From contig CM034137.1 of assembly GCA_019914995.1 (NCBI GenBank), positions 7,839,155 to 7,903,154 of the forward strand: DNA of 64,000 bases. The letters are read 5' to 3'. A program made the translations under genes and the position numbers. This document shows positions 9,976 to 46,255 of the stretch, in pieces (position 1 is the stretch's first letter; each line of letters starts with the position of its first letter). Source of the stretch: Acanthochlamys bracteata. Lineage: Eukaryota; Streptophyta; Magnoliopsida; Pandanales; Velloziaceae. The notes beneath the pieces are model-generated. The model searched no databases, was not told the DNA's origin, and worked only from the letters and a program-made list of their open reading frames with translations.

Positions 9976-12900
9976 ATGGGAAACAAGATTGGAAGGAGGA
10001 GACAGGTGGTTGACGAACGGTACACTCGACCTCAGGGGCTGTACCAGCACAAGGATGTGGATCATAAGAAGCTGCGAAAGCTTATCCTCGACTCCAAGCT
10101 AGCTCCTTGCTACCCTGGTGATGATGAAGCCACATTCGACCTTGAGGAGTGCCCAATCTGCTTCTTGGTATGATACTCGTCTCTCCTACTGTTTAGATTA
10201 TTGATTACTGTTTAAATTATTTTCTTCTTGTTCATTGGAATTGTTGGTCCTTGTAGTTTAATGGAGGTTGTGGAGAATCAATTATGTCAGGATTGCATAT
10301 CTACCTTCTGCATATAAACTGTTTGTCTAGACCATATATACTGTTAGGGTATATACATAACTTAAACTGTAAAAAACTCATTGCAACCATACTTTCTTTG
10401 GTCTTTTATGTCTCTCGATGTAAGGAACTTGTGTTCTCTGTGACTTAGTATGCATTAATATAATTTTAGTCTCTCTCTCTCTCTCCCTCTCTCTCTCCTT
10501 CTTTTTAAAAATCCATTGTGTGTTTGCTTTTGATCTGATATTGAAGGATTAAAACTTCCCTGGTGTCACATCTCACTTTGAGATTGTTCAGAATTCTAAA
10601 AGGTTGCCTGCTATACTGATCTGAGGTACAATGAAGGGAGATGTGAATGTTCCAGACAAATGTCTCATTTGCTCTGGAAAGTAGGGCGTGAGTGGTACAG
10701 ATAATATTGCACCATATAGTAACTAGAATAAGCATTGATTCAGTTTGTTGTTCATGATGCGTTGTATATTTTCAGCTATGCTTCTTACACCATCTAGTTT
10801 TTCAGTTTGTCATGGAAGACAAAAGTGCAATCAACAGCTTTTGAATCTTGTTTGTTAGTTTTAAAAATATTGTAGGCCAACTCAGAAGTTGCAAATCCTT
10901 TTTTTCCTTTCGAATAAGGATATTGTAAAATATGATAAACAGATTTATGCTTTCTCTTTACATATTTGGGAGTCTTTGGAGTCTGTCAAGTTGGGAATAA
11001 TTTTTGACTGCTCTGTGGATTTACCTTGACTACATTGCACTTGCTGCTTATATTTGATAGGCCTTGTTTATTTTGTTATCCTACAGTATTATCCAAGCCT
11101 CAACCGTTCGAGATGTTGCATGAAAGGCATATGTACAGGTGAATTTATTATCTTCCCTCAACGTAAGTATTTGACCTTTGGTCTATGGTTTTTTATTCTA
11201 CTGATGTGATTGTCATGCTGCTATACAGAGTGCTTTCTTCAGATGAAGCCCCCTCATTCTACAAGACCTACACAGTATCCTTGTTAAAATTTGGAGTCTA
11301 AGGAATTTTGGGAATGGTCCTTACTAGGTTAGTGTACCTTATGTAGGATAATGAGGCCAGCTTGTTACTTAACTATTTCTAAGATGCCCTTTCTGCAAGA
11401 CTTCAAACTACGCTGTGGAGTATCGTGGTGTGAGGTCGAAGGAAGAGAAGGGATTCGAACAACTTGTAAGCTTTTTGATGGAATTTGCATGCTCCTTTTT
11501 TATTTTTTTGTTTGTTTTTTCCCGAACCTACCATTGTCAACTTCTTTCTTTCCTATAGTTAATTCTCTCCATGTTAAAGTACTCGAAATTTACAGGAAGA
11601 GCAGAGGGTCATAGAAGCACAGATACGGATAAGGCAGCAGGAGCTCAAGGAAGAAGAGCAAAAGATGCAGAAGAGACATATTGTCAGTACAGCTAGTGGA
11701 GCTATAACTCCAGCTGAGGTTGAGTATCAAGATGTAGCAACCAGCTCTGTGTCAGGTGCTCTTATGTTAAATATTTGTATCTTAATAATGGCCACCAAGC
11801 AACAGTATCTGGATTCTATTATTATTTATCCTATACTTTAGTACAATACCTTAAAAAATGTTTTTTGTACAGTTCCCTCATTCAGATGCCAAGCACCAGT
11901 AAATGAGATTGATGCTTCTCTGAGCTCTTGCAGTTTGCTACCAAGTAGTAGAGCTTTGCTTGCCAGGCAGAACAGGTATCTCTGATGTATCTACCTCTGG
12001 TCTTTGTTTAGCGACCTGCTTTAAACGAGTATTGTTACAATGATTGACTGAAATTAGCAACTGCAAGATATTTTGGCCCCTTTGGAAGAGCATCTTTCCC
12101 TTTGGCCATATACTTTTTCTCTTCTGTTTATATACATTTTTTCAAAAATGAAATGTTTGCATAGTATTGCTGAATTTCTCATTCTTTGCTCCCTTAAAAG
12201 ATCGTTGCCTGATTTGAGTGTAATCTTGGTAGTTGATCACGCCTTTCTGTGTTAAGTAGCATTTTTTTCAAAAAGGAATTAATTTTGAAATATAACGTTA
12301 TAGCACTGAACAAGATGATCCTAGTAATATGAGACAGATTTTAGTTTGATGCAACCTTCTTAACAAACAAACTTTCAATCTCCTAGTTGTAGTATCACAC
12401 TTATTTAGCCTCATCATGTTTTGTTGCACCCTTGCAGCCGTTAATGCCAGTCTCCTACCAAAAGGCTTGAAGTTGCTTTATTTTCAGTAATTTACAAAAC
12501 TTTATTTTATAATTGGAGATAGTTAGACAACTGTGTTTCATTTAATTTTAGCATCTAGGATAATTGCATCATTTGTGAAGGTTACTGTGTTTCACTTAAT
12601 TTTAGCATCTAGGATAATTGCATCAGATAATCGCTATGCATCTTATTTCTTCTTTCTTGAGCATTTTTATAGTTTGTCCTTGTTTTTTGTGGAATTACTT
12701 TCCCAGTTTTGTTTTTGTTTGCGTTTGATATGAGACAGCTCTGGTGATGCCAACATAGTTCTGTTGATTAGCTTTTTTTTTCTGGTTTTTGTTCTTAATG
12801 TATCTATTGCTTAGAGGAACACATGGACATTGGTTGATTTGGAGTCTCTTACTGTGAAATCAGGGAAGATAATTTTGATTTGGACCTCGAGGACATCATG

Positions 12901-14062
12901 GTCATGGAAGCAATCTGGCTCTCAATTCAGGTACACGTGTGTTTTCTTATAGTGAGATTTGTCATGAGGGTTTTATTTTAGCTAATATTGTCCAATTGGT
13001 TAATAACGTACAGTGGAATATTCTTAGAACAATTTGCTTCTTAAGTTCACTTTTCAGTACTGCTTAAAAATATCTGTCCCTGTAGAGAAATTGGTTTCAA
13101 GGACTACCTAAAATGTAAAGCTATAGCTTGTGGTTGTTACCGTTCTCGGGCTTTGGATTGGAAGTTGCTATAAAACAAACTGGATAACTTTGCAAGTAGT
13201 CATCTTAACTTGATTGGGTACTATGTTGCAGAAGCTTTTCTTTCAGTCCTCTGAGAAAAAAGAAATGTATGGCAGAGAGATGTGTAGACAGTTTCTTGCA
13301 GATATATTATCTTTCTAGCGTTCCATCTATTCTTAGCCTCTATTTTTCTAAGCATCAGTCTCCTTTTTGTCCTTTTTGACAAATTGATAATGTATACGCT
13401 GTTATTGTTGAACTCGGGGTCAGTCCCTGGTTGCTATGTCTTCTTCTTCCTGTTATTTGTAAGTCTATCTTATTTTCGTTTGTCAATGACAGGAGCATGG
13501 TACTCACAGAACTCCAATTTGTAGTAGTAGTAGAGGATCATCTTCGGAGGAATCCTCCTGTTCGCATGGGATGGCCCCATCAGAAGCATCTCCTTCTGAG
13601 GGGCTTGCCTGTGCAGTCGTGGCCTTGGCAGAATGCCAAAACACAAACATCTCGGACTCTATCAGTGTATCCGGTAGCAGCATGCAACCCTTTGACTCGT
13701 TGCAGACTAATTACACTGCTGGAGGAAACCGAATCATGAACTATCAGAATTTCTCACAAGGAGATTGGATCGAGATGTCACCCGACATGGTGAATGCAGT
13801 GGTTCCTAGAGAGGAGGGGGCGTGGACCATGATGGATCAGAGATCAGACATGGCAGAAGTAGGGACCAGTTATGCAAGCTCTGATGTAGCGGTGGACTCG
13901 ATGTCTGCTGCATCTCCACCACTTCAGGAAGTCCCTCATGTCCCTCCTGGCCATATTCAGGTTGTACCTGAAAGCTTTGAGGAGCAGATGATGTTGGCAA
14001 TGGCAGTTTCTCTTGCGGAGGCTCGTGCCAGGTCAAGCTCTCAAAGCCTTACATGGATGTAA
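9976..14062 (+). CDS. DA2: DA2-like RING-type E3 ubiquitin ligase
   Basis: Eight coding exons: 9976-10167, 11087-11138, 11229-11274, 11384-11465, 11596-11755, 11873-11975, 12864-12930 and 13493-14062. The phases close to one 423-aa frame (Arabidopsis DA2 is about 400). It begins [20 protein letters not shown], a strongly conserved start. The RING begins CPIC at residues 59-62 and continues through [12 protein letters not shown] to CPFC. A charged helix ([15 protein letters not shown]) follows, then [16 protein letters not shown] and a C-terminal [16 protein letters not shown] motif, as in DA2. In Arabidopsis, DA2 ubiquitinates and activates DA1 to restrict cell proliferation in seeds and organs. 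DA2 versus its paralogue DA2L is not resolved. Confidence 0.93.
10471..10498 (+). repeat. (CT)n microsatellite in DA2-like intron 1
   Basis: An uninterrupted CT run with one CCCT break, inside the first intron of the DA2-like gene. Likely length-polymorphic. Confidence 0.8.
12530..12625 (+). repeat. Two-copy direct repeat, 54-base period, in DA2-like intron 6
   Basis: A 42-base unit at 12530-12571 recurs at 12584-12625 with one T/C difference (TTTCATTTAATT versus TTTCACTTAATT). Both copies carry TTTTAGCATCTAGGATAATT. This is a recent tandem duplication inside an intron, with no coding role visible. Confidence 0.85.
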
Positions 14063-14561
14063 TGTAACGTTTTGGCTTCCCATTCGAGTCTGAAATTCAC
14101 CACTTAAGTCGAGGGATTCCTTCTGGTTCCATTGTTTCATTTCTTTTTCGTTGTTTGATCTATTTTATAGGTTGTACAAAAATGAAAATGCAAGGGGTAA
14201 ACAAAGTTGAAAGTCCATGGTGATGCACATTGGTTCTGAATGTAGTAAGAATTCTTGCAGCTTATAGTGAGTGATAAATAGAAGGGAGAAATGTTAGATA
14301 GATATTACTTGTGCTCCATGATTCTGTTATATAATGGTGCATTTCTGGCAATGCAAAACTTCTCTTATACTTATAGTGTTTGGTATTTCCTGTTTATCAT
14401 ATAGGCAAGAGTTTTGTGAACAAAAACTATCGAAATCAACTTCTGCTTACAAACTCCAAATGATAAATCCAAAGACATTAAAATTTTTTTTTTTTGTGGG
14501 GTGATTCGATCGTGTTGCTCCAAAATACAACAATGGAATAGGTAGTCCTGGGGAATCAAAT
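14063..14561. other. 3' region of the DA2-like gene up to the CAT pseudogene
   Basis: AT-rich 3' untranslated and spacer sequence with a T-homopolymer near 14,485. No gene seen. Confidence 0.5.
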
Positions 14562-15540
14562 GGCAATAGCGCCTTTTGGCATAAAAGGCATGTTTCAGGC
14601 AGCAGCTGTTGTCTACTGGGCGAACACTGGGTTCGATATTGTCGCGACCATGGCGGAAGAAAGTAAGAATCAGGCGATAGACATACCACTTGGCCTCGTA
14701 GGCTCCATGTCAGTTGTCACAGTCGTCTACTGTGCAATGGGGCTGGCGCTATGAGCAGCCGTACACAATGATCGAACCCGACAGCGTTCTCCGTGGCATC
14801 CGCAAAGATCGGCATGCGCTGGGCGAAATACATCGTGACATTCCGAGCACTCAAGCAGATGAACACTGGATTGCGCGACACTAGGACAAGCATGTACACT
14901 ACACAGATTGCCCAACATAAATCATCCCGCCATACCTCGTATTGGTTCACCCAACGGCAGGTAATCCAGTATACGCCATGAAACCAGTTACAGGCGTCAC
15001 GTGCATCATCGGTTTGTTCTCTGAGTCTTGACGTGTTAGCAAGCATCAGCATGCTGTTCATTTTCAGGCTCATGGCGCTTGCGTTCCTTGTCGGATGATA
15101 CTATGCAGGCCAAGTCGCGACACGAAGTCTGACTTGCTGAAGCTTGTCAAATAGTTAACGGTTGTCATTGGATCATCCATAGGGATGGCATTACTGGGCC
15201 ACCACTTTGCCCCAAAAATGGATCGGTCACTGTTACAGTGCCTCCTTGGTTTGTAGGAACACATGGGCTGCAAAATGTTTGCGAAGCAGAAGAACTCGCC
15301 AGAGGTTTGAGGCATGCCGCTAGTACCCTGGTTGGCATCACTGTCCATGGCAATCAATGTATTTCTTATGGGATCGCACGGCGGGGCAGCTTTTCATGGG
15401 GTCCAGAATTTGCACTGAGGTAATGCTGTTAGATTGGCTGCTGTTCGGAGTTCACGCGACATTCCAGCCGCAACAGAATGATTTTGGAGCTGGAAACATG
15501 GATGGTAACAGAAAGCAAGCAGAGGTTAGACAGCAGTAAC
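14562..15540 (+). pseudogene. Decayed cationic amino acid transporter (CAT) copy, C-terminal half
   Basis: A fragment related to the two intact CAT genes at 20.1 and 23.9 kb. The first 65 codons align well: AVVYWANTGFDIVATMAEES matches AIVYFAYGGFDNIATMAEET of the intact copies. After that the match jumps between frames: SAKIGMRWAKYIVTFRALK, then a LVHP..GNPVYA stretch, then GMPLVPWLASLSMAINVFLM, then LLFGVHATFQ. I count several frameshifts and stops. The N-terminal half, including the first membrane helices, is absent. The end is followed by CAGCAACAGCAACAG repeats. This is older than the other two copies, judging by its divergence, and is clearly non-functional. Confidence 0.88.
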
Positions 15541-16286
15541 AGCAACAGCAACAGCAACAACACTAGTTCATTCAGAAACTTCAGTTTAGTTTGTAGTTGC
15601 TAATTTTCTGTAACATTGTTCTTTTCAAGTCCAGGGTTAGCATTCTTGCAAGTGTATTTAAATCATGAGTGTTTTTGTTATGGTTAAACATTTCTTTTCA
15701 GATAACTAACAGTAAAAAGTTGAGTTTTCAACTACCTGTCAATCACAAATTCCTGAATGTTTTCTTGCTATGGATGTCGAAGTTGCGGAGGATGCAGTTG
15801 GTTGCAAACTTTTGCATTTAAGGTGCAGCAGAAATAACAATTGCAGGATATATATGAAGCAGCAAAACCTAGTAATACTGAAATGATAACTTTCATAAAA
15901 CACAACTGTTGCTACCCCTGCACTGAGCTTCTGATTATCTTCTAAAGAGATAAGTTCCTGCTACACTTGAAGTTTATCTGCAAATTTAGCCCCAGAAGAA
16001 TATGATTTTATAAGAAAGATTCCATTTAATACTACAAAAAGAGAAAAGAAATATAAATAGTCAAAATGAAACATTAACATAACATAAATACCATTAGGCT
16101 TGCAGTCAACCACTTTACGACCTTTACGCTTGTCGACAAGTGTTAGTTGTATTTGCTGCAATTACAATGAGTACAAAGGCAAGGAACCTGTTCTCCGTGC
16201 TTGGTGCTGATTCAGATATAATGAACTAGAACCTCAGGATTTCAACTATAGTACGCATCAGAAGGGTCCTTTCTCCAGCATGTTTC
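15541..16286. other. Spacer between CAT pseudogene and PPR gene, with the PPR 3' flank
   Basis: Starts with a short CAACAG repeat. From about 16,085 onward it matches 21,885-22,110 downstream of the first intact CAT gene (see the duplicated block). Nothing else recognisable. Confidence 0.5.
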
Positions 16287-16320
16287 CTACCTATGAAGAT
16301 ATGCGGCAAGCGTGCTGTGT
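16085..16320 (-). repeat. Duplicated block, copy 1: end of the PPR gene and its 3' flank
   Basis: Closely matches 21,885-22,110; for example GAACTAGAACCTCAGGA and TACGCATCAGAAGGGTCCT occur in both. It holds a 64-base exon-like stretch at 16092-16155 on the minus strand, between TTGCAG and GTATTTA, reading VDKRKGRKVVDCKPN. Both copies keep the splice-like borders, so it may be a spliced 3' untranslated exon of the PPR gene. That reading is inference. Confidence 0.75.
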
Positions 16321-18392
16321 AAGATTTCATCAGGTTGAAGACCATCAGCTAACATCCTATTGTACAGTGATCTTGCCTCATGCAGTCTTCCAACTTCACA
16401 ACATCCACGAATTAATATATCATACACCACAAGATCTGGTAAAAGCCCACTGGTTGTGGCAGTCTGGAAAGTCGATAAAGCATCATCAAGCCGATCTGCA
16501 TTGCAGAGGCCATGAATGAGAATACTGTAACTAATAATATTTGGGGAGACACGATTGTTCAGCATTTTTTCATGTAAGGCAACAGCATTTTTCGTATCAC
16601 AAGCTTTAAATTGGCCATCTACAAAGCAGCTATATGTTACAACAGTAGGCCTCATACCATTTTCAAGCATCTTAACAAGAAAGGCCATCGCTTCGTCAAT
16701 TCTTCCTTCCTTACAGTAAGCATCAATGAATAATGTAAATGTGACAACATTTGGTTTAGTATGTTCTTGATTCATCATCTCTTGAAAAAGCCGAAGAGCT
16801 TCATTGAACAATTTGCAAGAGCAGTACCCACTGATCATTGTGTTGTAAGTCACTGTATCAGGCTCAACTTTGTGTTCCCTTAACCTATCAAAGAGTTCAG
16901 ATGCTTCTTTCATGTTCCCCAGCTTTACAAAAGCATTTATGACAACGTTATAGACAAAAGTATCAGGCGAGACACCATTCTGAACCATCATCCTGTAAAG
17001 TGCCAGTGCAGCCATTAGGTTGTTATGCTTACTCAATTCATCCATCAAACTGCAGTAGCATACCACGTCTGGGTTTATGCCTCTTTTCAGAAATTGAAAG
17101 AAAAGCATAAGTGCCTCCTTCAACCTCCCTGTACTTGCCAACACCTTGATAAATGATGTAAATGTAACCAAATCCGGAACCAAGCCATCAAGCAAAAGTT
17201 GCTTGTAAGTCTTTACAGCATCCGTCAAGCTTCTTAAACAGCAGCAACCATCAAGTATGGCATTGTAGATAATAATATTTGGTTCTACTTTCGACTTTAG
17301 GAGCAATCTTTGAGCATCACTCACATATCCCATCTTAGAAAGACCCTTCACTAATACACCAATAACTACCATATCAGGAACCAAACCAGTCTCAATCATG
17401 TGCCCATGAAAATCCAATGCTTCTTGCAAATTTCCATTCTTGCAAAGAGCATCGATAAGGCTGCTATAAGTAAACACATTTGGCTCAAGTCCTTGCTTTA
17501 CCATCCTACAAAAAACTCCACAAGTCTCAGTGGTTTTGCCAACCTGACTCAACCCATTCATCAATATGCTATAAGTAACAACATTAGGCACCATACCTTC
17601 CTCCATCATTCTTCTATACAACTCAAAGGATTTATTTACATCTCCTGATCTCACATACCCGTCCAAAAGTGAACTAAGAATCACTATGTCCGGCTTCAAG
17701 CCATGCACTAACGCATCACAAAGAATAGCATGGCCTTCCTGAATTCTTCTTTCCTTGCAGAACCCATCAATCAGGATAGTATAAACAATTAAATCGCGTG
17801 ATATACCCTTCTCTACCATAACCTTGTAAATTCTCATTGCAGCATTCATTCGACCTTCTGTACAAAATCCTTGAATCACCGTACTGTAAGTCACCACACT
17901 TGGCACAGGACCTACTTCCAACATTAAATTAAACAATTCAAAAGCAATGCCGGGCTTATCCCCCTTGCACAAACTGTTCAGAAACTTATTGCAATCTTGA
18001 ATCCTCAAAAGAATACCCTTTGCAACAACTGCATTGTGAAAATCCAAAACCTTACTGGTGCTTCCCGTTTCCATCAACATATGCATAACTCTGCTGTACC
18101 CATTAAGCAATCCACTATAAATATACAACATTTTATCTATTAAATCATGTTTAGCAGAAGAATTCAAAGTACCCATCTGTCTTCTTAATGCAATGTGAAA
18201 TCCAACAGAGATCATAAGCTTCCAATTCCAATTGAGGCATTCTGACGAACAGTTTACGTGCACTAGCTTTGTAGTGTGAAAGGAACTTCCTTTCACGAAA
18301 GCTTTGTTGGAGTGAATCGATTGAAGTTGCCGCTTGTAAGAATCGAAGAAAAGCAAGAGCCGATGCTTGTAAGGGGTGGAATTGAAGAGCAT
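16287..18392 (-). CDS. P-class pentatricopeptide repeat (PPR) protein
   Basis: Intronless, 701 aa. From about residue 105 to the end there are roughly 17 tandem 35-residue motifs of the P type, such as NVVTYSILMNGLSQVGKTTE and DTVTYNTMISGYCSCKLFNE. PPR proteins bind organellar RNA, each repeat reading one base, and act in editing, splicing or stability. There is no E, DYW or SMR domain. The region before the repeats has little PPR character. A second open frame at 18,151-18,432 overlaps it and starts farther upstream, so the N-terminus, and with it the organelle-targeting signal, may be misread or damaged by a frameshift. The 3' end lies inside a duplicated block. Confidence 0.9.
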   Translation of the reverse strand: MLFNSTPYKHRLLLFFDSYKRQLQSIHSNKAFVKGSSFHTTKLVHVNCSSECLNWNWKLMISVGFHIALRRQMGTLNSSAKHDLIDKMLYIYSGLLNGYSRVMHMLMETGSTSKVLDFHNAVVAKGILLRIQDCNKFLNSLCKGDKPGIAFELFNLMLEVGPVPSVVTYSTVIQGFCTEGRMNAAMRIYKVMVEKGISRDLIVYTILIDGFCKERRIQEGHAILCDALVHGLKPDIVILSSLLDGYVRSGDVNKSFELYRRMMEEGMVPNVVTYSILMNGLSQVGKTTETCGVFCRMVKQGLEPNVFTYSSLIDALCKNGNLQEALDFHGHMIETGLVPDMVVIGVLVKGLSKMGYVSDAQRLLLKSKVEPNIIIYNAILDGCCCLRSLTDAVKTYKQLLLDGLVPDLVTFTSFIKVLASTGRLKEALMLFFQFLKRGINPDVVCYCSLMDELSKHNNLMAALALYRMMVQNGVSPDTFVYNVVINAFVKLGNMKEASELFDRLREHKVEPDTVTYNTMISGYCSCKLFNEALRLFQEMMNQEHTKPNVVTFTLFIDAYCKEGRIDEAMAFLVKMLENGMRPTVVTYSCFVDGQFKACDTKNAVALHEKMLNNRVSPNIISYSILIHGLCNADRLDDALSTFQTATTSGLLPDLVVYDILIRGCCEVGRLHEARSLYNRMLADGLQPDEILHSTLAAYLHR

Positions 18393-19600: not shown

Positions 19601-20061
19601 CTAATATTTCTTTTGGCTATAGCTGCAATTTGTGAATACGAATATAGATAGAAAATTGATGATTGATATTAGTTGAGTTGTTACATTCAGATTCAAAAAT
19701 GAACAGTTTATTTGTCTCGCGCGATACCTTTTGTCATAAAAAACGACAACCAGAATCTTAGAATTATTCCGCAAGTGACTAATTTTCCTTTGGCATTCTT
19801 TGTGTTTGAACTGTACACTTTGAATCTTACGCACACAAGGAACCTATGGTACATGTAAACGATGTTGATATCTTTCTGTGCTTGATTAGATAGTTTCTGA
19901 AAATAATTATGAACATCATTGAGAATGGGCTACTCATGAGTGGCAGTTTTCCATGGCATATAGTTAGTGTACAGGTCTTCCTTATTCAATAGTAGTGCAT
20001 AATGTGTGGACTACTTTAAAGCAGCTTGCAGGTTACCATTTGGTCTCATTGCCCAAAGCAA
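19601..20061 (+). promoter_or_regulatory. Promoter and leader of CAT copy A, duplicated before copy B
   Basis: Aligns with 23,530-23,949 almost base for base over the first 230 bases (shared GCAAGTGACTAATTTTCC and GAACTGTACACTTTGAATC). The last 200 bases differ more. The tandem duplication therefore carried its own promoter, and both genes probably began with similar expression. Confidence 0.65.
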
Positions 20062-21837
20062 ATGGATACCAACAATGGTGATAACCTGAAGCAGCAGCAG
20101 CCAACAAGTAGTTATTGGAGATTTAGCTGGGAAGATTTCTACCCTGAAGACTCATTCCGGAGCTGGACTGCGTATTGGTTGGCACTCTCTAAAACCCCTC
20201 GCCGTCTCAGGGACCGTATTTTTGGACGATCGACGGATGCTGAGGAGCTTGGTGAACTCCGTAGCCGGAGCGAGAACGATATGAAGCGTTGCCTCACTTG
20301 GTGGGACTTGATATGGTTTGGTTTCGGCTCCCATCTCGGTGCTGGTATTTTCGTGCTTACTGGTCAGGAGGCGCATGGAAATGCCGGTCCTGCTATTTTT
20401 CTCTCTTATCTAGCTTCTGGGTTGTCTGCAATGCTATCTGTCTTCTGCTACACTGAGTTCGCCGTTGAGATTCCGGTCGCCGGCGGATCTTTTGCGTACC
20501 TTAGAGTTGAGCTGGGCGACTTTGCAGCGTTCATTGCAGCGGCAAATCTAATACTTGAGAGCATTTTGGGTACCGCAGCGGTCGCGAGGGCGTGGACGTC
20601 GTACCTCGCTACGCTTTTAAACCGTTCCCCGAACTCCCTCCGAATTCATACGAACCTCGCCGACGAGTACAACATGCTCGACCCAATCGCCGTTGTCGTC
20701 CTCCTCGCGACATCAACAATCGCCATGCTCAGCACAAAGAAGAGTTCCCACTTCAACTGGATTGCCTCCGCCGTCCACATCGTCGTCATTGCGCTCATCA
20801 TCGTCGCCGGTTTCCTTCACGCGAAACCCAGCAACTTAAAACCATTCCTTCCTTTCGGCGTGCAAGGCGTTTTCCGGGCAGCAGCGATCGTCTACTTCGC
20901 CTACGGTGGCTTCGACAACATCGCGACGATGGCCGAAGAAACGCGAAACCCGTCGAGGGACATTCCGTTAGGCCTCATCGGTTCCATGTCTATCATCACG
21001 GCTATCTACTGCTTGATGGCAATGTCCTTAAGCATGATGCAGAACTACAAAGACATTGATCCGAACGCTGCCTATTCCGTTGCGTTTCGCGCCGTCGGCA
21101 TGAAATGGGCGCAGTACGTCGTTGCGTTTGGAGCACTTAAAGGCATGACAACGGTACTCCTCGTCTGTGCTATCGGGCAAGCGCGGTACACTACGCATAT
21201 AGCGAGAAGCCACATAATACCTCCCATCTTCGCCCTCGTACACCCGAAAACCGGCACGCCGATTTACGCCACGATGTTGATCGCCTTCTGTAGCTCTGTC
21301 GTCGCATTGTTCTCGAGTCTCGATGTTCTTTCCAGCCTACTGTCAGTCAGCACGCTGTTCATCTTCATGATGATGGCAACGGCGTTGCTAGTGAGACGGT
21401 ACTACGTCCCCGGCGTTGCGACGAAGCCCGATCAGATCAAATTATTAGCTTTCATACTACTTATCATCGCGTCATCGATGATGACTGCAGCGTACTGGGG
21501 ACTGCGTCCGGGAGGATGGATCGGATTCGTTGTGACCATCCCGATGTGGTTTGCAGCGACGTTGGGTTTGCAGGTGTGCGTTCCACAGCAAAGGAGGGCG
21601 AAGGCGTGGGGAGTGCCGATGGTGCCCTGGTTGCCGTCATTGTCGATCGCGACGAACTTGTTCTTGATGGGATCACTGGGCGCTAAAGCATTTGTTAGGT
21701 TTGGGATATGCACTGGTATCATGATCATTTACTACCTGTTCTTTGGGTTGCATGCTACTTATGATATGGCAAAGTTGGCAGCACCAGCAAAACGGTTAGT
21801 TGTTAATTTGGAAGAGGAGAAGAATGGGAAGGTATAG
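20062..21837 (+). CDS. Cationic amino acid transporter, CAT1/CAT8-like (copy A)
   Basis: Intronless, 591 aa, APC-superfamily permease expected to carry basic amino acids across a membrane. The ATG at 20062 (MDTNNGDN) is preferred because the open frame extends upstream only with non-ATG codons. Landmarks include FCYTEFAVEIPVAGGSFAYL, GFDNIATMAEETRNPSRDIP, FGALKGMTTVLL and a C-terminal FGLHATYD. The sequence is very close to copy B. Two differences stand out: the first-helix substrate motif reads SHLGAG (residues 90-95) where copy B has the normal SVIGAG, and the C-terminus ends NGKV because about 135 bases present in copy B are deleted. Transport competence is therefore uncertain. CAT8 is suggested by probable synteny only. 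Confidence 0.92.
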   Translation: MDTNNGDNLKQQQPTSSYWRFSWEDFYPEDSFRSWTAYWLALSKTPRRLRDRIFGRSTDAEELGELRSRSENDMKRCLTWWDLIWFGFGSHLGAGIFVLTGQEAHGNAGPAIFLSYLASGLSAMLSVFCYTEFAVEIPVAGGSFAYLRVELGDFAAFIAAANLILESILGTAAVARAWTSYLATLLNRSPNSLRIHTNLADEYNMLDPIAVVVLLATSTIAMLSTKKSSHFNWIASAVHIVVIALIIVAGFLHAKPSNLKPFLPFGVQGVFRAAAIVYFAYGGFDNIATMAEETRNPSRDIPLGLIGSMSIITAIYCLMAMSLSMMQNYKDIDPNAAYSVAFRAVGMKWAQYVVAFGALKGMTTVLLVCAIGQARYTTHIARSHIIPPIFALVHPKTGTPIYATMLIAFCSSVVALFSSLDVLSSLLSVSTLFIFMMMATALLVRRYYVPGVATKPDQIKLLAFILLIIASSMMTAAYWGLRPGGWIGFVVTIPMWFAATLGLQVCVPQQRRAKAWGVPMVPWLPSLSIATNLFLMGSLGAKAFVRFGICTGIMIIYYLFFGLHATYDMAKLAAPAKRLVVNLEEEKNGKV

Positions 21838-23390: not shown

Positions 23391-23949
23391 CCTAACTCAC
23401 ATATGTACAACGCTACACCCGAAGGAACGTAAGGTAGTAATGCCCTCTTAGACTCTTAAGAGACTAATCTAGGGTTGCAGGTACAGAAATTTGGTCAATG
23501 CGGGGCTCTGTTTTTTGTTTTTCTTTCTTATGTTTTGGCTATATCTGCAATTTGTGAATACGAATATAGATAGAAAATTGATGATTGATATTAGTTGAGC
23601 TGTTACATTCGGATTCAAAAATGAACAGTTTATTTGTCTCACGCGATACCTTTTGTCATAGAAAACGACAACCAGAATCTTAGAATTATTCCGCAAGTGA
23701 CTAATTTTCCTTTGGCATTTTTTGTGTTTGAACTGTACACTTTGAATCTTACACACACAAGGTGCGTTTGAAGGGTGTTGATACCTTTCTGAAAATAATT
23801 GTGGATAACATTCAGCATGGGCAACTAGCGAGGGGCAATTTTCCATGGCATACAGTGTTCGGGTTCTATTATTCAATACTACATACTGTGTGTGTGGACT
23901 ACTTTAAAGCAGCTTGAAGGTTGCCATTTATTCTCATTGCCAAAAAGCA

Positions 23950-25767
23950 ATGGATACCAACAATGGTGATGACCTGAAGCAGCAGCAGCAGCCAACAAGT
24001 AGTTACTGGAGATTGAGCAGGGAAGATTTCTATCCTGAAGATTCATTCCGAAGCTGGACTGCATATTGGTCGGCGCTCTCGGAAACCCCTCGCCGTCTCA
24101 GGGACCGTATTTTTTCCCGATCAACAGATGCTGCGGAGCTTGGTGAACTCCGTAGCCGGAGCGAGAACGATATGAAGCGTTGCCTCACTTGGTGGGACTT
24201 GACTTGGTTTGGTTTTGGCTCTGTTATCGGCGCTGGTATCTTCGTGCTTACTGGTCAGGAGGCGCATGGAAATGCCGGTCCTGCTATTGTTCTCTCGTAT
24301 GTAGCTTCTGGGTTGTCCGCAATGCTATCTGTCTTCTGCTACACTGAGTTCGCCGTTGAGATTCCGGTCGCCGGCGGATCTTTTGCGTACCTTAGAGTTG
24401 AGCTGGGCGACTTTGCAGCGTTCATTGCAGCGGCAAATCTAATACTTGAGAGCATTTTGGGTACCGCAGCGGTCGCGAGGGCGTGGACGTCGTACCTCGC
24501 TACGCTTCTAAACCGTTCCCCAAACTCCCTCCGAATTCATACGAACCTCGCCGACGAGTACAACATGCTCGACCCAATCGCCGTTGTCGTCCTCCTCGCG
24601 ACATCAACAATCGCCATGCTCAGCACAAAGAAGACTTCCCACTTCAACTGGATCGCTTCCGCCGTCCACACCGTCGTGATCGCGTTTGTCATCGTCGCCG
24701 GCTTCCTTCACGCTAAACCCAGCAACTTAAAACCATTCCTTCCGTTCGGCGTACAAGGCGTTTTCCGGGCAGCAGCGATCGTCTACTTCGCCTACGGTGG
24801 CTTCGACAACATCGCGACGATGGCCGAAGAAACGCGAAACCCGTCGAGGGACATTCCGTTAGGCCTCATTGGTTCCATGTCTATCATCACGGCTATCTAC
24901 TGCTTGATGGCAATGTCCTTAAGCATGATGCAGAACTACAAAGACATTGATCCGAACGCTGCCTATTCCGTTGCGTTTCGCGCCGTCGGCATGAAATGGG
25001 CGCAGTACGTCGTTGCGTTTGGAGCACTTAAAGGCATGACAACGGTACTCCTCGTCGGCGCTCTCGGGCAAGCGCGGTACACTACGCATATAGCGAGAAG
25101 CCACATAATACCTCCCATCTTCGCCCTCGTACACCCGAAAACCGGCACGCCAATTTACGCCACGATGTTGATCGCCTTCTGTAGCTCTGTCATCGCATTG
25201 TTCTCGAGCCTCGATGTTCTTTCCAGCCTACTGTCCGTCAGCACGCTATTCATTTTCATGATGATGGCAACGGCGTTGCTAGTGAGACGGTACTACGTCC
25301 CCGGCATTACGACGAAGCCTGATCAGATCAAATTATCAGCTTTCATATTACTTATCATTGCGTCGTCAATGATGACTGCAGCGTACTGGGGACTGCGTCC
25401 GGGAGGATGGATCGGGTTTGTTGTGACTGTCCCAATGTGGTTTGCAGCGACGTTGGGTTTGCAGGTGTGCGTTCCGCAGCAAAGGAAGGCGAAGGTGTGG
25501 GAAGTGCCGATGGTGCCCTGGTTGCCGTCTTTGTCGATCGCGATGAACTTGTTCTTGATGGGATCACTGGGAGCTAAAGCATTTATTAGGTTTGGGATAT
25601 GCACTGGTATCATGATCATTTACTACCTGTTCTTTGGGTTGCATGCTACTTTTGACATGGCAAAGTTGGCGGCACCAGCAAAACGTTTAGCTGTTGATTT
25701 GGAAGATGAGAAGAATGGGAAGATACCAGCAGCAACTCCTGCAGGTGTTCATCAAGAACAAGAATAG
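23950..25767 (+). CDS. Cationic amino acid transporter, CAT1/CAT8-like (copy B)
   Basis: Intronless, 605 aa, with the ATG at 23950 chosen as in copy A. It has a full set of CAT landmarks: SVIGAGIFVLTGQEAHGN in the first helix (from residue 91), the FAVEIPVAGGSFAYLRVELG block, LLVGALGQARYTTHIARSH, and a complete C-terminal tail ending in HQEQE. It looks like the better-preserved functional copy. Expected role is proton-coupled uptake or redistribution of basic amino acids at plasma or vacuolar membrane; localisation is not shown by the sequence. Near-identity with copy A over long stretches suggests recent duplication or gene conversion. Confidence 0.94.
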   Translation: MDTNNGDDLKQQQQPTSSYWRLSREDFYPEDSFRSWTAYWSALSETPRRLRDRIFSRSTDAAELGELRSRSENDMKRCLTWWDLTWFGFGSVIGAGIFVLTGQEAHGNAGPAIVLSYVASGLSAMLSVFCYTEFAVEIPVAGGSFAYLRVELGDFAAFIAAANLILESILGTAAVARAWTSYLATLLNRSPNSLRIHTNLADEYNMLDPIAVVVLLATSTIAMLSTKKTSHFNWIASAVHTVVIAFVIVAGFLHAKPSNLKPFLPFGVQGVFRAAAIVYFAYGGFDNIATMAEETRNPSRDIPLGLIGSMSIITAIYCLMAMSLSMMQNYKDIDPNAAYSVAFRAVGMKWAQYVVAFGALKGMTTVLLVGALGQARYTTHIARSHIIPPIFALVHPKTGTPIYATMLIAFCSSVIALFSSLDVLSSLLSVSTLFIFMMMATALLVRRYYVPGITTKPDQIKLSAFILLIIASSMMTAAYWGLRPGGWIGFVVTVPMWFAATLGLQVCVPQQRKAKVWEVPMVPWLPSLSIAMNLFLMGSLGAKAFIRFGICTGIMIIYYLFFGLHATFDMAKLAAPAKRLAVDLEDEKNGKIPAATPAGVHQEQE

Positions 25768-36432: not shown

Positions 36433-38450
36433 TACTCTGGAGCAAGAGTCAATAGGAAATACACGAAAGCGCATGCTATTTATTTAAAGACTTAAAAATA
36501 AATAGATTAACTCAAGTAGGTGAGATCTTTATTGTTTTATTAAAAAGTTTTGTGCTAACTTACCTTAATTGAATAAGTTAAATGCTATACACTATTAGCT
36601 CACTTGTCTATTTTTTATACATAAAAACATGCATACTTTTTAACATCTCTATCAGAGATAGACTATGAAACTTATTGCATTCATGAAATGGTTAATAAAG
36701 TTAAAGCGTATAAAATTAAGTGGCAAATGCACAGGATCCATTTACATTGCAGTGAACAAATGAAATTGATGGTAAGGATAGGTTATTGTAGAAACTTTGC
36801 TCATTTACTATATTTTTCAAGTGTATTTTTTATACATTTAAGCGTCGTACATAAAATTAAAAAAATTTAAATAAAATTTTTTGAAAAATAAGTTTAATAT
36901 CTTTACAAAATAAAATATATGGAAGAAATATTTTACAATATATAATTTCTTAAAAAATTTTAAAATTATTGTATATTTTATCAAAGAACGTAAATATTTA
37001 AATAAAATAAAATTGTGCGAAATATATTATTAAATAGCATTGCTCATGGAAGTGAATAATTAAAAAATAAATTTATAATATATTAGTAAAATAAATATAA
37101 ATAATCATTTTCAAATCACTCAAGTTTTTACGGAATTAACTATTTTTTGTGTTTTTTTTTTTTTTGGGGGTTATCTATCCTCCAAAGAAAAGTTCATAAA
37201 CAAGAAAGGGTAACAAAAACATGGACACTCTCCCTCCTGAATCCCAAGGAATCACACTTAAGTTACCCACAGAAAACACTGTTTACTTGATTCCTTTGGT
37301 TCCCTTCTCGTTAGCTATCATCTATCACCAGCTTTCTTTGGTTTTTTAAACTCCCTAATTTACCCTTTCTGTTTTTATATACAAGTTAAGAATCTGATAT
37401 TAGATTACAAATATATAACTAGCCTTAAGACAATATAGGAAGAAATTATCTCAATTTAAGATAAAAATAATATTAACGTTTGAAAGTGATTATAAAAAAA
37501 TATTTTTGTAAATACTTTATTTTATAAATATTTAAAATCAAAATTATACATATAATTATTCTATAATTTATAATTTATTTATATATTTCAATTTTTAATA
37601 TTTTTTAAAAAATTGTGTATTCTGAAGTTGAATAAAAACTTCTGATAATTTTATATGATAATTTCTTACCAATGAACACTCAATATCTTTCCAAGTTGAT
37701 TTTGCACATCATGATACATATCATTTAAATCATCATATCATATGAAATTCCCAACAAAAAAAAAAGAAAAAGAATTTCTCTCTTTTTATGGTCCCAACAA
37801 ACGCTCAAAAAGATGTATCACATGAAAAAAAAAATTTCATCAAATGACTCCAAATAATTCTATTTGTCTATAAAAAATTGAGACATAATATCAATATCCC
37901 TGAAAACAACAACTTTGTTACTAAAATATGAAATACTTGTTTTCATATTGCTATATTCATATATTTCTCATAAATTTCACGTCAAATGAAATTAACAATT
38001 TCTTTGTTGAATTTATTTATTCGCATTAATTTCTATACATCCGAAACTCAAAAATAAATATGAATAAAATTTAAGATATATTTTTTAATTACTATTATTG
38101 TTTAGCTATTTTTTAACATAAAATTACTATTAACAGCCAAATTGACGTACATCTGACAGCTTTGTGTTCAAGGGTAAAAATGGAATTTATGTTAAACAAA
38201 AATTTAACTAAAATTTTCTGCAAAAGTTCCTAAGGAAGAATGGAAGGTCTACGTAGTCTTTCTGTTTAAGGAATTTTACAATACATGGCCACTAATAACT
38301 TCTTTAATATATGATTGGCTTTTCGCATTATTGAGTCCAATCACAAAGGAAAAAAAAGGAATTTTAGTCACTATGAAACTAAAAGTTTAATGTAGGGATC
38401 TGGTTTTGCGAAATTGTCGTTAGTGGACTAGTAATACAAAATATTGTTAT

Positions 38451-40331
38451 TATGTGGTTAATTAATTGCTTAATTAAGAAAAGTGTTAACTGGTCAAGTG
38501 TGCTGTTGACTGCTTTCTTTTGTTTCTCTCTCTCCCTCTCAGCCTTTATCTCAATAAGCAGAAGGAAAAAGAAAAATAGAACATTCCTTCTTAAGAAGAA
38601 AAAAAAAAAAAACTCTTCTTTCTTCTCCGATCACCGAGTTGGAAGAATCAACAACTATTATCTTATCTTCCTCTACTACAAATAGTCGAAGTTGGGAGCT
38701 TTAGATCAGTTTGCAGCTTTGTTTTTGATCTGGGTTCTTTGTTTTCAGAGATTCAAGAAAGAGGTAAGAATGACTTGAAAGAACCAAACCTGCTCACTGT
38801 TTCTGCTTTTTCTTGAACTTGAGAAACGTTTCCCAGCTAAGCTTTGTGATTTAATATTTAAAAGTTTGATTCTTTTGGTGGGAAATAGAGCAATGGTCGG
38901 TGTTTTCCCATTTTGTGAAGAGTGAGGCTTAACCCACTTCTCACTAGTTGGAACTTGATGAGTTCGTCTTCAAAGGAAATGACTTAGTTTTGGTCGGGAG
39001 TAGGATTGTGGGAATTGGGGAGTTCTTATCTCTGAACAAATTCCCTTGTCCATTCTTCGTTTTTTCACTAAGAATAGCTTGGCAATTGGATCTCTATCGA
39101 AGTTAACTTCTAATTGAAAGAATGAAGAATGGTGGGAGATATATTCTTTGTTGATGTGCATTTGAAGAAGATCCCTGACGATGGCCGATTATATTGTGTT
39201 AACAAAAACAAAGGAAGATTTGTGGTGGGGGTCCTAGGCAAGGTTCATGTTGATGGGCATGTCACATACGTTATATATGCCCTAATCACTGTTCAGATTT
39301 TTGTGTGGTCACTTCTTAATGGATTTCTAGGGAAAAGAGGATTCTTGGTCATTGAGGGTGCACGGGAGAGACAAGAATGGGCTCTTTCTCTGGTTTCTTT
39401 TCCTTATAAATGAGTTCCATATCAAGAAAGTAATCCTCTCTTTGGATATGTGCTAAATACTTTCATCTGTGTAAGAAGGATGAGCAAGAACTTTGTGTAG
39501 TGGTATTTTATTCCTGAGTTTGGTAATCAATTGGTTTCGGTGATTCTTTAAAAACGGTTCTTGTTGATGGTCAGTACCCTGTCTGCGAATGGTTTGAGAT
39601 GAATGTTCCACTTGCTTTTTGACTAGAAGTGGTTCACCTGCTGTGTTGAATCTTGAAAGAAACAAAATTTTGGAGGTCGTGATATGTTGTTGGTTAATGG
39701 TTACATCCTGTTTTCGCATGGGGGTGAGAATGACCCACACAATCGGACTTGTCTCAGGTGTAAGTTTTTTATTGGTTAAACGTAGGATAGGAAGTTTCTG
39801 TGCGTTTGGGAAGGCTATGCATGTAGGGAGACTTGAATTCTACTGTTTAATTATTTTGTTTCTGCATTTCTTGCTAGTGTGAGCTTGATAAATTTGAGAT
39901 TCTAATTGATTAATTTGGTATAATGACTGTGTTTTGATGGACCTCTTGATCGCTTACAGAAACAAATGCGTGATTTCTTGAACTTCATCGCATAAATAAT
40001 GATTTAACTACGAGCTCTTTGGATGTGACATAAGATATTATTGGTGGTATTTGTTTGCTGTCACTAACAAGAACCTGCATGCTTAGTAGTGACTTCAGCT
40101 TAAGTTATTCGATGCATTCTTTGTTGTTACTAATATATCTTATTGCATGTTGTAACCTGATTTCTCCACTTCTGTTGCAGAAATAATGTCTAAGGAGCTT
40201 ACCAAATATTGAGAAGAGTTTTCTCAAAGATAGAACTCCCATCTAGATTCCTTTTGATTTTCTGACTACTTTCAATGAGTACTTATTATCTTTGACTTAT
40301 TTATACTAGTCTTTTACCTTGCCATTTCAGA
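38451..40331 (+). other. Likely 5' leader exon and long leader intron of the UBP15-like gene
   Basis: A CT-rich start-like region at 38,515-38,545 leads to a possible donor at AAGAAAGAG|GTAAGA (38,764). A good acceptor, GCCATTTCAG, lies at 40,330 just before the upstream ORFs. The interval between would be a leader intron of about 1.57 kb. A 94-codon ORF at 39,129 has no recognisable features. Confidence 0.5.
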
Positions 40332-40438
40332 ATGACAAATCGAGTTCGTCATTCTGGTCTGACTGCGGCTTGGAATTTATTGGGTGTGAACTGGACATGA
40401 CTATTTTGTGGTGTCATGCTCCAACTAAGGGAAGCTGA
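40332..40438 (+). promoter_or_regulatory. Two overlapping upstream ORFs before the UBP15-like start
   Basis: uORF1 (40332-40400) encodes 22 residues starting MTNRVRHSG and ends at TGA. uORF2 (40397-40438, 13 residues, [13 protein letters not shown]) begins within an ATGA overlap with the end of uORF1 and runs past the main ATG at 40416 in another frame. If the leader is as read, ribosomes meet two AUGs before the main one, which would be expected to lower translation. Conservation is unknown. Confidence 0.5.
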
Positions 40439-43400
40439 TATACCTGCCCTTTTCCTCATCCTGGTTGTCCTTCCTCTTATAACATACTTCATACTTGGGA
40501 TATGGAATGAAGCTGCAAAAAAGAAGGCCAGAATAAGTATGCTTGCTCAAATTGCCACTGAAGAAACTATTGGAGTGGAAGCCACAGCATCTGCTGAGAT
40601 TGTTCCTACTGTTCCTTCTCCTAAGATTGGCCCTCATTTGTGTGCCCAATGCTTTGCTCCTGCTAAAACAAGATGTGCTAGATGCAAATCAATCAGATAC
40701 TGGTACGTCATTTTTCTTCACTCTGAGGTTCTTTTTCATGTGACGTGTCCAACTTTTTGCTTTTCAATAATTTTTCTTCGTTGGTATTTGTTAATGTTTC
40801 TTGCGTGAATGAAAATTACAAAATCTTTAGTTGATTGGCTAATCAAATTCTTGTAATGATAGGAGAATGCACCCTTTATTAACTTTCCTGGAACCAATTA
40901 CTTTGTGAAAGCAATTTATCATTACACATTCTTCCTTGATCTATGGTCATTGGGGGCCTCCTAAAAGGATCTACTAAATTCATCGAGTTGTTCCAAAGAA
41001 TCAAAACGGCCAGTAATTAATGGAATCCGTTTTAACATGACTAGGCTGCTGCTTTTAGTTTCAGTACCAATCAAAGGAAAGAGAAAACAGAGAAAAGATA
41101 GGTGTACCTTATGCAAGTAGGAGAAAAATATTCTGAGCTCTTCTTATATTACAGCTCAGGGAGGTGTCAAATAATGCACTGGAGGCTTGGGCACAAGGAT
41201 GAATGTCAACAGCAGGGTCATGGTAGCTGGACTACGTCAGCTATTTCTTCAGCTTCACAATCTATCGAGCATATGGATCATACGGGGGGTCTGTATACTA
41301 ACAATTCTTCGATTATGTTAAATAACCCAGATCTAACTTATGAAACCACTAATAATGTGGTAGGTGACGCATATAATGTTCCAATACCTGGTACTGGGTT
41401 ATCAAACAATCATCCTGAAGATTTTGGATCTTATTCAGATGAGACTGCTGCTTCTAATTTATCTTATCCCTGTTTTGATGCACTCGCTTCTCGACCTAAG
41501 GTTGGTTTTGTTGCTCTTTATCTTTCTCTAACTAAAGTGATATTCCAGCTTTTGGTTGTTGGTATATCTTGTTCCTTCCAATGGTTGCAGCCAGGAATGT
41601 ATGATCTCTCTGCTTCACCTTCCAACAGCCAGTATACCAGTAATCCAATTTCTTCCGAACAAAGCTCTGTATTGAATAATTCAGTCCACTACCCTCATAA
41701 ATCAACAGGGAAAATGAGGAAAGTTCTTAGACAAAGCCACTTACCTGATTCATCAAGTTTGGGACCTATTGATGGAAAAATGATGACTAATCCTGGAAGC
41801 AGCTCAGAGTTTCTGGAGAAAGACGATTCTCAGGAGTGTGAAGTATCTTCAATTAGTGATTCATCAGCGCCAAGTATGCAAGCAGCAAGTAGTTCTAGTC
41901 AAGAAAGCACGAAGTATAAGAAACCACCCTACACTTTATCACCGTCAAATCAATCATCAAGAAAATCTGATAAAAGTGTATCTGGTAAATACTCTGTTCA
42001 TTGCATCAAGACTAAACACTTGGAATTATGATTTAAAATACAGATAATAAGTGACTATTTACATTTCACGTGTTTAAATCATTTTGTCTATGACTCTTAC
42101 AAATTAGTCCAAATGTTTCCATAGGAAATTCTAATCAGATTTGTGGTGAATTTTCAGGGATGGGAGACTCGGAATTGACTGGTCCAGGAAAATTGCCTAA
42201 GGCTCCTAAAAGGAATCTTATGGAATTTATAAATTATCAGAAGAAAAAGAAGGTATTTGTCATTCTTCTTTAATAAGAAAGATTTTCTCATGTTTATTGC
42301 ATAATAATGCATTAAACTTTTGCATTTTACATTTTTCTGCATATGTAGGTGCTCTTTCCTTATGAAGATCTAGTGAAACTGTTCCAATGTGAGATCTGGG
42401 AAATCTCACCTAGAGGGCTTCTTAATTGCGGTAACAGGTACCTTCTTATAACTCCTAATTACTTAGCTCGCTATCTGACAGGTTATGTGCATCGTTCATT
42501 TAATTGTTTGTTATCTGCTAGCCTCTCAACTTCAACTACAGTGAGGCAGGTGGTTAAGTCTCAGAGGCACAAGACAGGTCTTGCACATATGGTTTTGTTT
42601 TTCTTGCTTGCTTGTGTTTGGTTTAAATGAGATAAAAAGGAGAATGAAACGGAGTTCTCTGGCTTGAGTATATCCAATTCCTTTTAACAACTATGGGTTC
42701 CCAGGATACCCGAAGACATTATTTTGCATATACATCGTTTAACTGTATAACAAATGCACCCTTTAACCATTTGAACAGTAGAATCTTACGTTACTCTTTT
42801 CAGCCTCAGCGTGAACCATCTTTGCTAATAGTCTTTCTTTCTTTCTTTCTCTCTTTCTGGCTTCGATGTGCTCAAACAGTAGGCACCAAAGCGTTGCTTA
42901 CTTAGGCTGATTGGATATTGCAAACACTGGGCACATCTTAAAGTTAACTAAATATGGTAATTATTTAATGAATTGTTGATAATTATCTCTAACAAGTATT
43001 ACTATCATTTTACTTTAAGAATAAACTATATCATACCTCTAGTATCATATTGGAAATAAAATATGTAAATCAGCCTAAACAGAATATTAATAAGTTTAGA
43101 AAAAGGTTCCCATGCCCTAACTAAGAATCCAAATCTCCAACATGGTAGAGCGGCCAAGTAAGATAGGTTTCATAAGTCTCTCTAGTATTCAATCATTGTA
43201 ACATCAAAGTAGTTGCACATAAGCTGAATATATTTGACTATAGGGAAGCAATTGAAAAAGAAATTATACCATTTGTCCTGATATATTTTAAAATATAAGA
43301 TGTACTGTAGCATAATTTGATTCTAGCTGATACTAAGGAACCTAGAAAAAAGATATGTTCCCTGATATATTTTGTAGATGAACCTACAGTGAGATCTTAG

Positions 43401-46255
43401 GCTACTTAGGAACAAGTTACGTTGTTTATGGAGGGATTCTTTGATTAAAGTTGCTTTCCTTTTTGTTCGTGTTGATGAAGTTGTCATTATCTACCTTTTT
43501 TGAGCTATATTTAGTATCTATTTTAAAGTTTTAACTAGATATGCTGAATTTGGTGTTCACCCCGAAAGAACCCACTGTGCATATTTTGGATTTCATTAAA
43601 GGCTGACAAAATGGACTATACATTCGGTTGTCTGATTTATGATTATGCTTGTCTGCCAGAACTTATGAAAACTACCCGCATAAGATCTCTCTTAGATGAC
43701 ACAAAAGAAATGAACTGTTATGTCACTTGGGTTTTCTATATTGTTAGTTCATTTTTGTAAAACTTATTGTTCTACCTACTCACACGTTTTCTTTTTAGTG
43801 ACTATTAGCACTATTATTTACTGTCCATGGTGTCTATGCAGTTGTTATGCGAATGCTGTCTTGCAGTGTTTGACTTGCACCAAGCCTCTCATGATATACC
43901 TGCTTCAGAGACTACATTCAAAAACATGTAATTTCTGCACCTAATAAATTCCTCATGTAACTGATTAATGCTTAACCGTGTAACTCTTCAATCTTCCACA
44001 TTTAGGCTGGGTTAGAAATTGGTGCCTCATGTGTGAACTTGAGCGGCACGTCTCACACCTAAGAGATGGTAGGGAACCATTGTCCCCTGATAGGCTCCTT
44101 TCAAACATGAAAAACATTGGATGGAGAATGGGTGGTGGAAAGCAAGAAGATGCTCATGAATTTCTAAGGTATAAAAGTTCATCATTTTCATGTTAGCTGA
44201 AGCCATTTGAATATTTTGAGCATTGATGTGACAACATGCAAAGCTACTAATTTCTTTAAGCAGACAATTATTTTCCATGTTGGTCGCTAGCATTACTCAC
44301 TGCCTATTTCTGAAAAATCTCATCAGGCTTCTAGTCATGTCAATGCAATCTATATGTCTCAAAGGATTTGGTGGCGAAAAGAAAGTTGATCCTATTCTGC
44401 AAGAGACGACTCTGATAGAGCAGCTCTTTGGTGGTCGCCTTAGATCGAAGGTCATTATTTCCTTTTATTTTTCACATGGCTGATTTATGCTAACTTGTTT
44501 CTCTAAGATCATGCATTTTCACTTGTAAATTTATTCCATCCAACTGAACCAGGTGAAATGTCTAAGATGCCATCTTGAATCTGAGCAATATGACAACATC
44601 ATGGATCTCACATTGGAGATACATGGCTGGGTTGAATCTTTGGAGGATGCGCTCACACAATTCACTGCTCCTGAGGATTTAGATGGAGAAAATATGTATA
44701 GATGTGGAAGGTATGGCAGTTATACTAGCTTTTGTCAAAAGTTGAAGGCTTTATCTGTAGTCTGTGTTTAACTCTACAAGATTGCTTATTAGGTGTGCTG
44801 GATATGTTAAAGCAAGAAAGCAGTTAAGTGTTCATGAAGTTCCAAACATATTGACAGTTGTCCTCAAAAGATTTCAGGTAATACTATATGAAATGGAGTT
44901 AAAGTGGTATTCCGTCTATGCATAGTGGAAGTGTGTTAATTTAAGTCGAACATTAGTTACGCTAGTCTCAAGTCTTCATCTATCGTAATTGGGTACTTTG
45001 CAAGGAAAAAAAAATGCAATATTGCTGCTGAACTTGTTAAGTCGCAGGAGCTACTAGCAATGTACATGGAGTGTTGGTGTAACATTGCATGCCCAACACA
45101 ATTAGCTTGACATTCTGTTCTGTTATTCTTCATGAGTCCCTCTAAGGAGCATCCAATCTTTTCTAACATGTTAATTATGATTGTTTACAGACTGGTGAAT
45201 ATGGAAAAATTAACAAATGTGTCACTTTTCCTGACATACTGGACATGATACCGTTTGTGACCGGAACCGGTGATACTCCTCCACTGTACATGCTGTATGC
45301 AGTTGTTGTGCATTTGGATAACCTGAATGCCTCCTTCTCTGGGCACTATGTGTCTTATGTTAAAGATCTCCGTGGAAAATGGTTCAGAATCGATGACTCT
45401 CAGGTATCACTTATTACAAAATTCTATGTTTGATCATCTTGGCATTTGTGTAAGTTGTACATTGTATATCAGTGGGATTCCGTACCAAGTGTCAACATAT
45501 TTCTTTCTTGTCAATCAGGTACAAGAAGTTACATGGAGTCAGGTGATGTCTGAGGGTGCATATATGTTGTTCTACTCAAGGTATGGCATATGCATGAGAA
45601 TTGTCTCATTAATTTGTCCTTCATTCTTAATACTGGTGATTCTGCTGCGTATCTTGATAAGATCAAACTCATCTCGTACAGATCTTTTCCGCGTGCTCCA
45701 TCATTTTATTTGGAGAAGATACATTTACAAGCCCAAAGTCAAACAAAGGAAACCAGTTGCAAGACGTCAAAACTGTCAAAGCTTGGAGCTCATATACAAA
45801 ACAGAAAAGGGCCTGTTTATGAGGATACAACACAAGTGCAAGGAAATTATAATCCAGAATTCAGGGAGAGTTCGGAAAATTTCACCACCCAGAGAAGCAT
45901 TAGTGGCAACATATGTCTACCCAGGGGAATCCCCAGAGATTCACTTACCATGGACTTCTCAGATGCATCAAGTGATTGGTCTCTTTTTACGAGCTCATCA
46001 GACGAAGCATCGTTCACAACTGATAGTTCCAGAAATTCATTCAGCACTGTTGATTATGGAGAGACTGTAGGCATTGACACCCTTTCGTCAATATTCTATC
46101 CGTATGTGCCAGAGTACAACAAAGTCATATCTTGTACAAGGACAGCACATTGTAAGCCAGAGACGAGGTTCTTCTTGGAAAGCAAAGGATTTGTTGCGGG
46201 TTCTTTGGCACAGACACAACAAGCAACCAGTGTAGATAAAGAAAGGAATTGGTAG
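40416..46255 (+). CDS. UBP15: UBP15-like ubiquitin-specific protease (MYND finger, C19 peptidase)
   Basis: Thirteen coding exons: 40416-40702, 41155-41500, 41591-41984, 42158-42252, 42349-42437, 43842-43927, 44006-44168, 44327-44450, 44553-44710, 44793-44877, 45191-45403, 45519-45580 and 45682-46255. Phases close to 891 aa (UBP15 is about 920). Residues 10-30 form a membrane segment ([20 protein letters not shown]). A MYND finger spans C76-C113. The catalytic Cys box [18 protein letters not shown] has C405, and the His box [11 protein letters not shown] has H661. The family removes ubiquitin from substrates; Arabidopsis UBP15 promotes organ and seed growth and is cleaved by DA1. Intron 5 (1.4 kb) splits the Cys box. 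UBP15-19 members share this layout; the start [10 protein letters not shown] favours UBP15. Confidence 0.92.

Follow-up and report, generated by a model that had tools for sequence, protein, structure and literature searches.

In Arabidopsis, the E3 ligase DA2 mono-ubiquitinates and activates the peptidase DA1, limiting growth, and the deubiquitinase UBP15, which is destabilised through DA1, promotes growth and cell proliferation (PMC7141810, PMC4093792). In rice, GW2 and LG1 (ubiquitin-specific protease 15) have opposite effects on grain width (PMC10706642, PMC8313227). Putative genes of both types are present in the window analysed here, a stretch of 64,000 nucleotides (nt) of contig C12 of Acanthochlamys bracteata with the gene content of a flowering plant; the genome searched comprised 195.5 Mb in 557 contigs. 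The pair spans positions 9976..46255, from the start codon of the DA2-type gene to the stop codon of the UBP-type gene. Both genes are on the plus strand, both models are intact, and the gap between them (14062-40416) is 26.35 kb, in agreement with the original prediction of a DA2-type and a UBP15-type gene on the same strand about 26 kb apart. The closeness of the two genes is most probably ancestral microsynteny that was inherited passively.

The DA2/GW2-type RING E3 ligase gene (9976..14062) was modelled with eight exons (9976-10167, 11087-11138, 11229-11274, 11384-11465, 11596-11755, 11873-11975, 12864-12930, and 13493-14062), an ATG at 9976, a stop codon ending at 14062, GT-AG exon borders, and no internal stop codon. 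The predicted protein of 423 residues matched no Pfam or NCBIfam model, and comparison with the PDB returned marginal RING matches only (BRCA1, residues 56-104, best E-value of 0.28). Its length is nonetheless that expected for the DA2/GW2 type, rice GW2 having been compared over 424 residues (PMC10020418). A disputed position of the variant RING is occupied by a conserved His in GW2 and by Asn-91 in AtDA2 (PMC4093792). Both the window protein (exon 11229-11274) and that encoded by a second copy of the gene on contig C7 have His at residue 91. Together with gene order, length and residue 91 suggest that the RING gene is of the DA2/GW2 type. Dicot homologues of DA2 are said to be devoid of this RING His (PMC4093792); the window and C7 copies harbor it, as does rice GW2, contrary to the pattern stated for dicots.

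The UBP15-type MYND ubiquitin-specific protease gene (40416..46255) was modelled with 13 exons (40416-40702, 41155-41500, 41591-41984, 42125-42252, 42349-42437, 43842-43927, 44006-44168, 44327-44450, 44553-44710, 44793-44877, 45191-45403, 45519-45580, and 45682-46255) encoding 902 residues in an intact reading frame between an ATG at 40416 and a stop codon at 46255. At 41500/41591 and 42349, the exon borders were selected from more than one open possibility. Two 12-exon models were open, coding for 932 residues if exon 4 starts at 42349 and for 917 residues if it starts at 42394; the former start was preferred, since it adds residues that are matched in both the C7 copy and USP36. An intron was placed inside exon 2 of the 12-exon model since an in-frame stop codon occurs at the corresponding place of the C7 copy. 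Six placements of this intron were open (902 to 921 residues), and 41500/41591 was chosen, giving the 13-exon model. The translation contains the Pfam domains UCH (PF00443, 1.7e-52) and zf-MYND (PF01753, 1.8e-9) and the catalytic boxes NCGNSCY, GHYVSY, and IDDS, and its best PDB matches were USP36 chains (4.3e-70). The protein thus combines a MYND finger with a downstream USP domain that carries the catalytic Cys, His, and Asp, as expected for the UBP15 type.

Gene order was compared between the C12 and C7 blocks of this genome and, from publications, with Arabidopsis, rice, wheat, maize, and Brassica juncea. Arabidopsis clones have been reported to carry AT1G17110 and AT1G17120 (nt 5846018-5854394) or AT1G17120, 17130, 17140, 17145, and 17147 (nt 5850646-5866025), and AT1G17100, 17110, 17120, 17130, 17140, and 17145 are consecutive from nt 5843587 to 5866025 (PMC3662643). 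UBP15 is AT1G17110, DA2L is AT1G17145, and DA2 is AT1G78420 (PMC4093792). UBP15 and DA2L therefore lie within about 20 kb of each other and are the same two gene types as in the window, although the linked E3 ligase is DA2L and DA2 itself is located elsewhere. AT1G17120, between UBP15 and DA2L, is presumably the amino-acid transporter CAT8, which matches the cationic amino-acid transporter (CAT) genes found here. The window differs from Arabidopsis in that the interval also holds tandem CAT genes, one PPR gene, one TOD1-type gene, and a pair of BAHD acyltransferases.

Rice MSU locus numbers step by ten, so that consecutive numbers designate neighbouring genes. GW2 is LOC_Os02g14720 and LG1 is LOC_Os02g14730 (PMC10020418, PMC8313227), the latter being one of four rice UBPs of the MYND group (PMC6249995). 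LG1 is located at chr02:8135122-8143345 (+) (PMC12218392) and GW2 between markers at 8069581 and 8181973, the latter of which is printed with S01, taken as a misprint (PMC4694703). The RAP numbers of the pair, 0244100 and 0244300, leave room for one RAP locus between them (PMC10020418, PMC10706642). The same two gene types adjoin in rice as in the window, the difference being that no MSU gene separates them according to the numbering, whereas the window pair is 26 kb and several genes apart. Since the same gene types are neighbours in Arabidopsis and in rice, the linkage is probably older than the monocot-eudicot split, and the two have probably been together over most of flowering-plant history. 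Collinearity with the region of rice GW2, including an inversion, has been reported for the two GW2 regions of maize, and UBP15 is not named in the passages concerned (PMC3017803). Association hits for AT1G17110 and AT1G17145 were reported on B03 and B04 of Brassica juncea (PMC12227704), a split that says little either way because the species is polyploid. No positions of the pair were found in the parts of maize and soybean publications that were searched. A remark on GW2/DA2-UBP15 adjacency was not found in the literature searched, whose coverage was partial, with the primary LG1, UBP15, and DA2 papers outside it, so that the absence of such a remark is weak evidence of novelty.

Genome-wide searches, in which 18 of 18 DA2 candidates and 49 of 76 UBP candidates were scored (the list of UBP loci being a lower bound), each revealed one close, complete-looking second copy, in both cases on C7. 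The C7 block (C7:9731449-9760433) harbors DA2, CAT, and UBP15 in the order and on the strand seen in the window. Its DA2 copy (9731449-9735049) is intact, encodes 424 residues, and is on the same strand as the UBP15 copy (9752070-9760433). The latter displays, in order, counterparts for each exon of the 12-exon window model, as judged exon by exon and not from an assembled gene, and a 65-90% match along the whole protein. When 90 kb of C7 were read against the window, DNA matches followed the window order at 4-1820, 2607-2957, 3182-4613, 9080-14327 (DA2), 14569-16489 (a CAT remnant and the following sequence, including the last ~200 bases of the PPR frame), 38458-46544 (UBP15), 54359-56131 (DUF538), and 63339-64000. 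The same 90 kb contained no co-linear match for the BAHD, TOD1, Fe-SOD, SOUL, GH47, and RING (61882) genes or for the PPR gene beyond its end. Between the pair, the C7 block thus has one CAT gene, no BAHD or TOD1 match, and the PPR end only (~200 bases). Matches out of order linked both window CAT genes, and the sequence after copy 1, to the single C7 CAT region; others were scattered (window 19231-19449 and 37454-37613) or were weak PPR matches (21-24%). The synteny question that had been proposed as a check is answered in part, the linkage being recovered in the C7 block (order and strand) and, from published locus positions, in Arabidopsis (UBP15-DA2L) and in rice (GW2-LG1).

Divergence between the window and C7 copies was similar for the two genes, with a dS of 0.37 and a dN/dS of 0.20 for DA2 (419 codons) and a dS of 0.29 and a dN/dS of 0.38 for UBP15 (907 codons of the 12-exon model, including about 30 codons since read as intron). 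Judged from these ratios, both pairs show coding constraint. The two pairs are of similar age, as expected from duplication of a genome or a segment. The tandem CAT genes of the window were considered as partners of the C7 CAT gene and rejected, since dS was 2.19 for copy 2 (542 codons) and the remnant at 14542 is a closer match. At about 9759346-9759603, the C7 UBP15 copy reads RINDS for RIDDS in the window, so that N replaces the first D of IDDS, the box of the third catalytic residue.

The linkage is thus present in more than one lineage and persisted after duplication, and other genes near the pair were also kept on C7, as ordinary block conservation predicts. Genes for a GW2/DA2-type E3 ligase and a UBP15-type deubiquitinase would already have been neighbours in the monocot-eudicot ancestor; their linkage would then have been kept in the window, the C7 block, Arabidopsis (with DA2L), and rice, a duplication in this lineage having copied the pair. 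By analogy with Arabidopsis, the two proteins would meet via DA1. Function would not be needed to explain the linkage, old neighbours being simply passed on together, and passive inheritance rather than selection is most likely its cause. Several points weigh against this interpretation. The names given to the two genes rest on length, residue 91, domains, and gene order rather than on a tree or named plant proteins; the locus positions in Arabidopsis and rice were taken from paper tables and a legend only; and such lasting close linkage could mean some selection. In addition, the wheat pair, GW2 (TraesCS6A02G189300; PMC10706642) and the LG1 homologue (TraesCS6A02G192600; PMC11771687), is looser, the two genes being 33 numbering steps apart on the same chromosome, 6A.

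Alternatively, the linkage may have been selected, through a shared regulatory domain or because matched alleles of an antagonistic E3 ligase and deubiquitinase were favoured. The closeness of the pair in rice, in Arabidopsis, and in both duplicated blocks here, over a long time span, is in line with this proposal, as are the opposite actions of rice GW2 and LG1 on grain width and a citation of genetic analysis indicating some relationship between these genes (PMC8998697). However, AtDA2 (AT1G78420) is itself unlinked, the wheat genes are more loosely spaced, neighbours with no known role in the pathway were also kept in the C7 block, and about 26 kb and several unrelated genes separate the pair here. 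Selected linkage is therefore unlikely. The broader proposal of a selected angiosperm-wide growth-control locus, in which matched alleles or shared chromatin would provide balancing around DA1 and some quantitative trait loci for grain size assigned to GW2 alone would be joint GW2-LG1 haplotypes, is quite improbable. The original prediction stands as regards the linkage, which is real and much older than one species; nothing tested supports shared selection or co-regulation.

That the RING gene is not of the DA2 type and the protease is of the UBP16-19 type, both being relatives outside the DA1 pathway, is very unlikely. This genome does contain two other, more distant DA2-like loci (C14 and C11) and further UBP loci. 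However, in four of the latter (C8, C9:5.3 Mb, C11, and C17) the match to the window UBP covered the catalytic part, in some together with the MYND finger, and amounted to about 38-67% per stretch, whereas that of the C7 copy reaches 65-90% over the full length; gene order, moreover, matches the neighbourhoods of AtUBP15 and rice LG1. Gene order and similarity within the genome support a tentative assignment to UBP15 rather than to UBP16-19. Overexpressed DA2L, like DA2, is reported to give small seeds (PMC4093792), so that linkage to DA2L alone does not place the linked E3 ligase outside the pathway. DA2L and UBP16-19 identities outside the DA1 pathway had been named in advance as grounds for abandoning the proposal; the linked E3 ligase of Arabidopsis is indeed DA2L, and on the protease side the evidence tentatively favours the UBP15 branch. 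Finally, chance closeness that arose recently in this lineage is extremely improbable, for although a pathway with many members will have some pair near each other in any genome, these two types of gene also lie near each other on C7, in Arabidopsis, and in rice, and a CAT-type sequence lies between them in both blocks here.

Just downstream of the DA2-type gene, a broken CAT remnant (14542..15600, plus strand; AA_permease_2) with internal stop codons is closest to the intact C7 CAT (77% over 66 residues). It is followed by the PPR gene (16290-18428, minus strand), by two CAT-type open frames in tandem on the plus strand (copy 1, 20020..21837; copy 2, 23908..25767; 94% to each other), by two BAHD acyltransferase frames side by side on the minus strand (26262-27671 and 28063-29517; PF02458), and by a TOD1/MUCI70-type gene from 32228. 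Downstream of UBP15 lie a third BAHD-type acyltransferase frame (51938-52789, minus strand; PF02458), a DUF538 gene (match region 54359-56131), and a RING gene (61882); the window also has Fe-SOD and GH47 genes. The SOUL haem-binding gene (50156..51425, minus strand), also downstream of UBP15, matched PF04832 (1.7e-39 in a scan of 50159-50599 only) and has a further exon near 51087-51425. AT1G17100, which adjoins AtUBP15, is presumably also a SOUL gene. We take AT1G17130 to belong to the Saf4/Yju2 family (PF04502). A search for this family gave eight matches, on C19, C20, C12:6.2 Mb, and C7:7.59 Mb, and none in either block, so that a neighbour of the AT1G17130 type is not conserved here.

Elsewhere in the genome, C9:4.67 Mb (about 3815-5783 of the C9 piece) carries two pieces only of the window UBP15 with its downstream flank, corresponding to 43620-44043 and 45903-47430 (84-85% DNA identity), so that the middle exons are missing from this partial copy. 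On C11, a distant DA2-like gene (7558279, plus strand) and a MYND-type UBP (7601649, minus strand) are 43 kb apart. This pair was considered as an older linkage and judged a coincidence because the strands are opposite and the remaining open frames of the window had no match in the two C11 pieces compared, 7553000-7589999 and 7598000-7607000, which flank a stretch of 8 kb. C14, which carries a DA2-like gene, gave no UBP match among the 49 of 76 candidates scored and no CAT match. Of the 15 DA1-like matches, none fell on C12 or C7 and hence none in the block of the pair; apart from one piece on C4, they were located on C2, C6, and C14.

The proposal that alleles of both genes travel together as one haplotype, so that a seed-size locus could have two causal genes, is sound in principle, and the neighbours in rice are both named grain-size genes. 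In that species, an opposed pair of seed-size genes hardly separable by mapping is real. Should the linkage turn out to be ancient and general, effects mapped to GW2/DA2 in crops may include those of an oppositely acting UBP15 neighbour. The pair would also lend itself to a clean test of whether selection or inertia holds the antagonistic partners of a pathway together.

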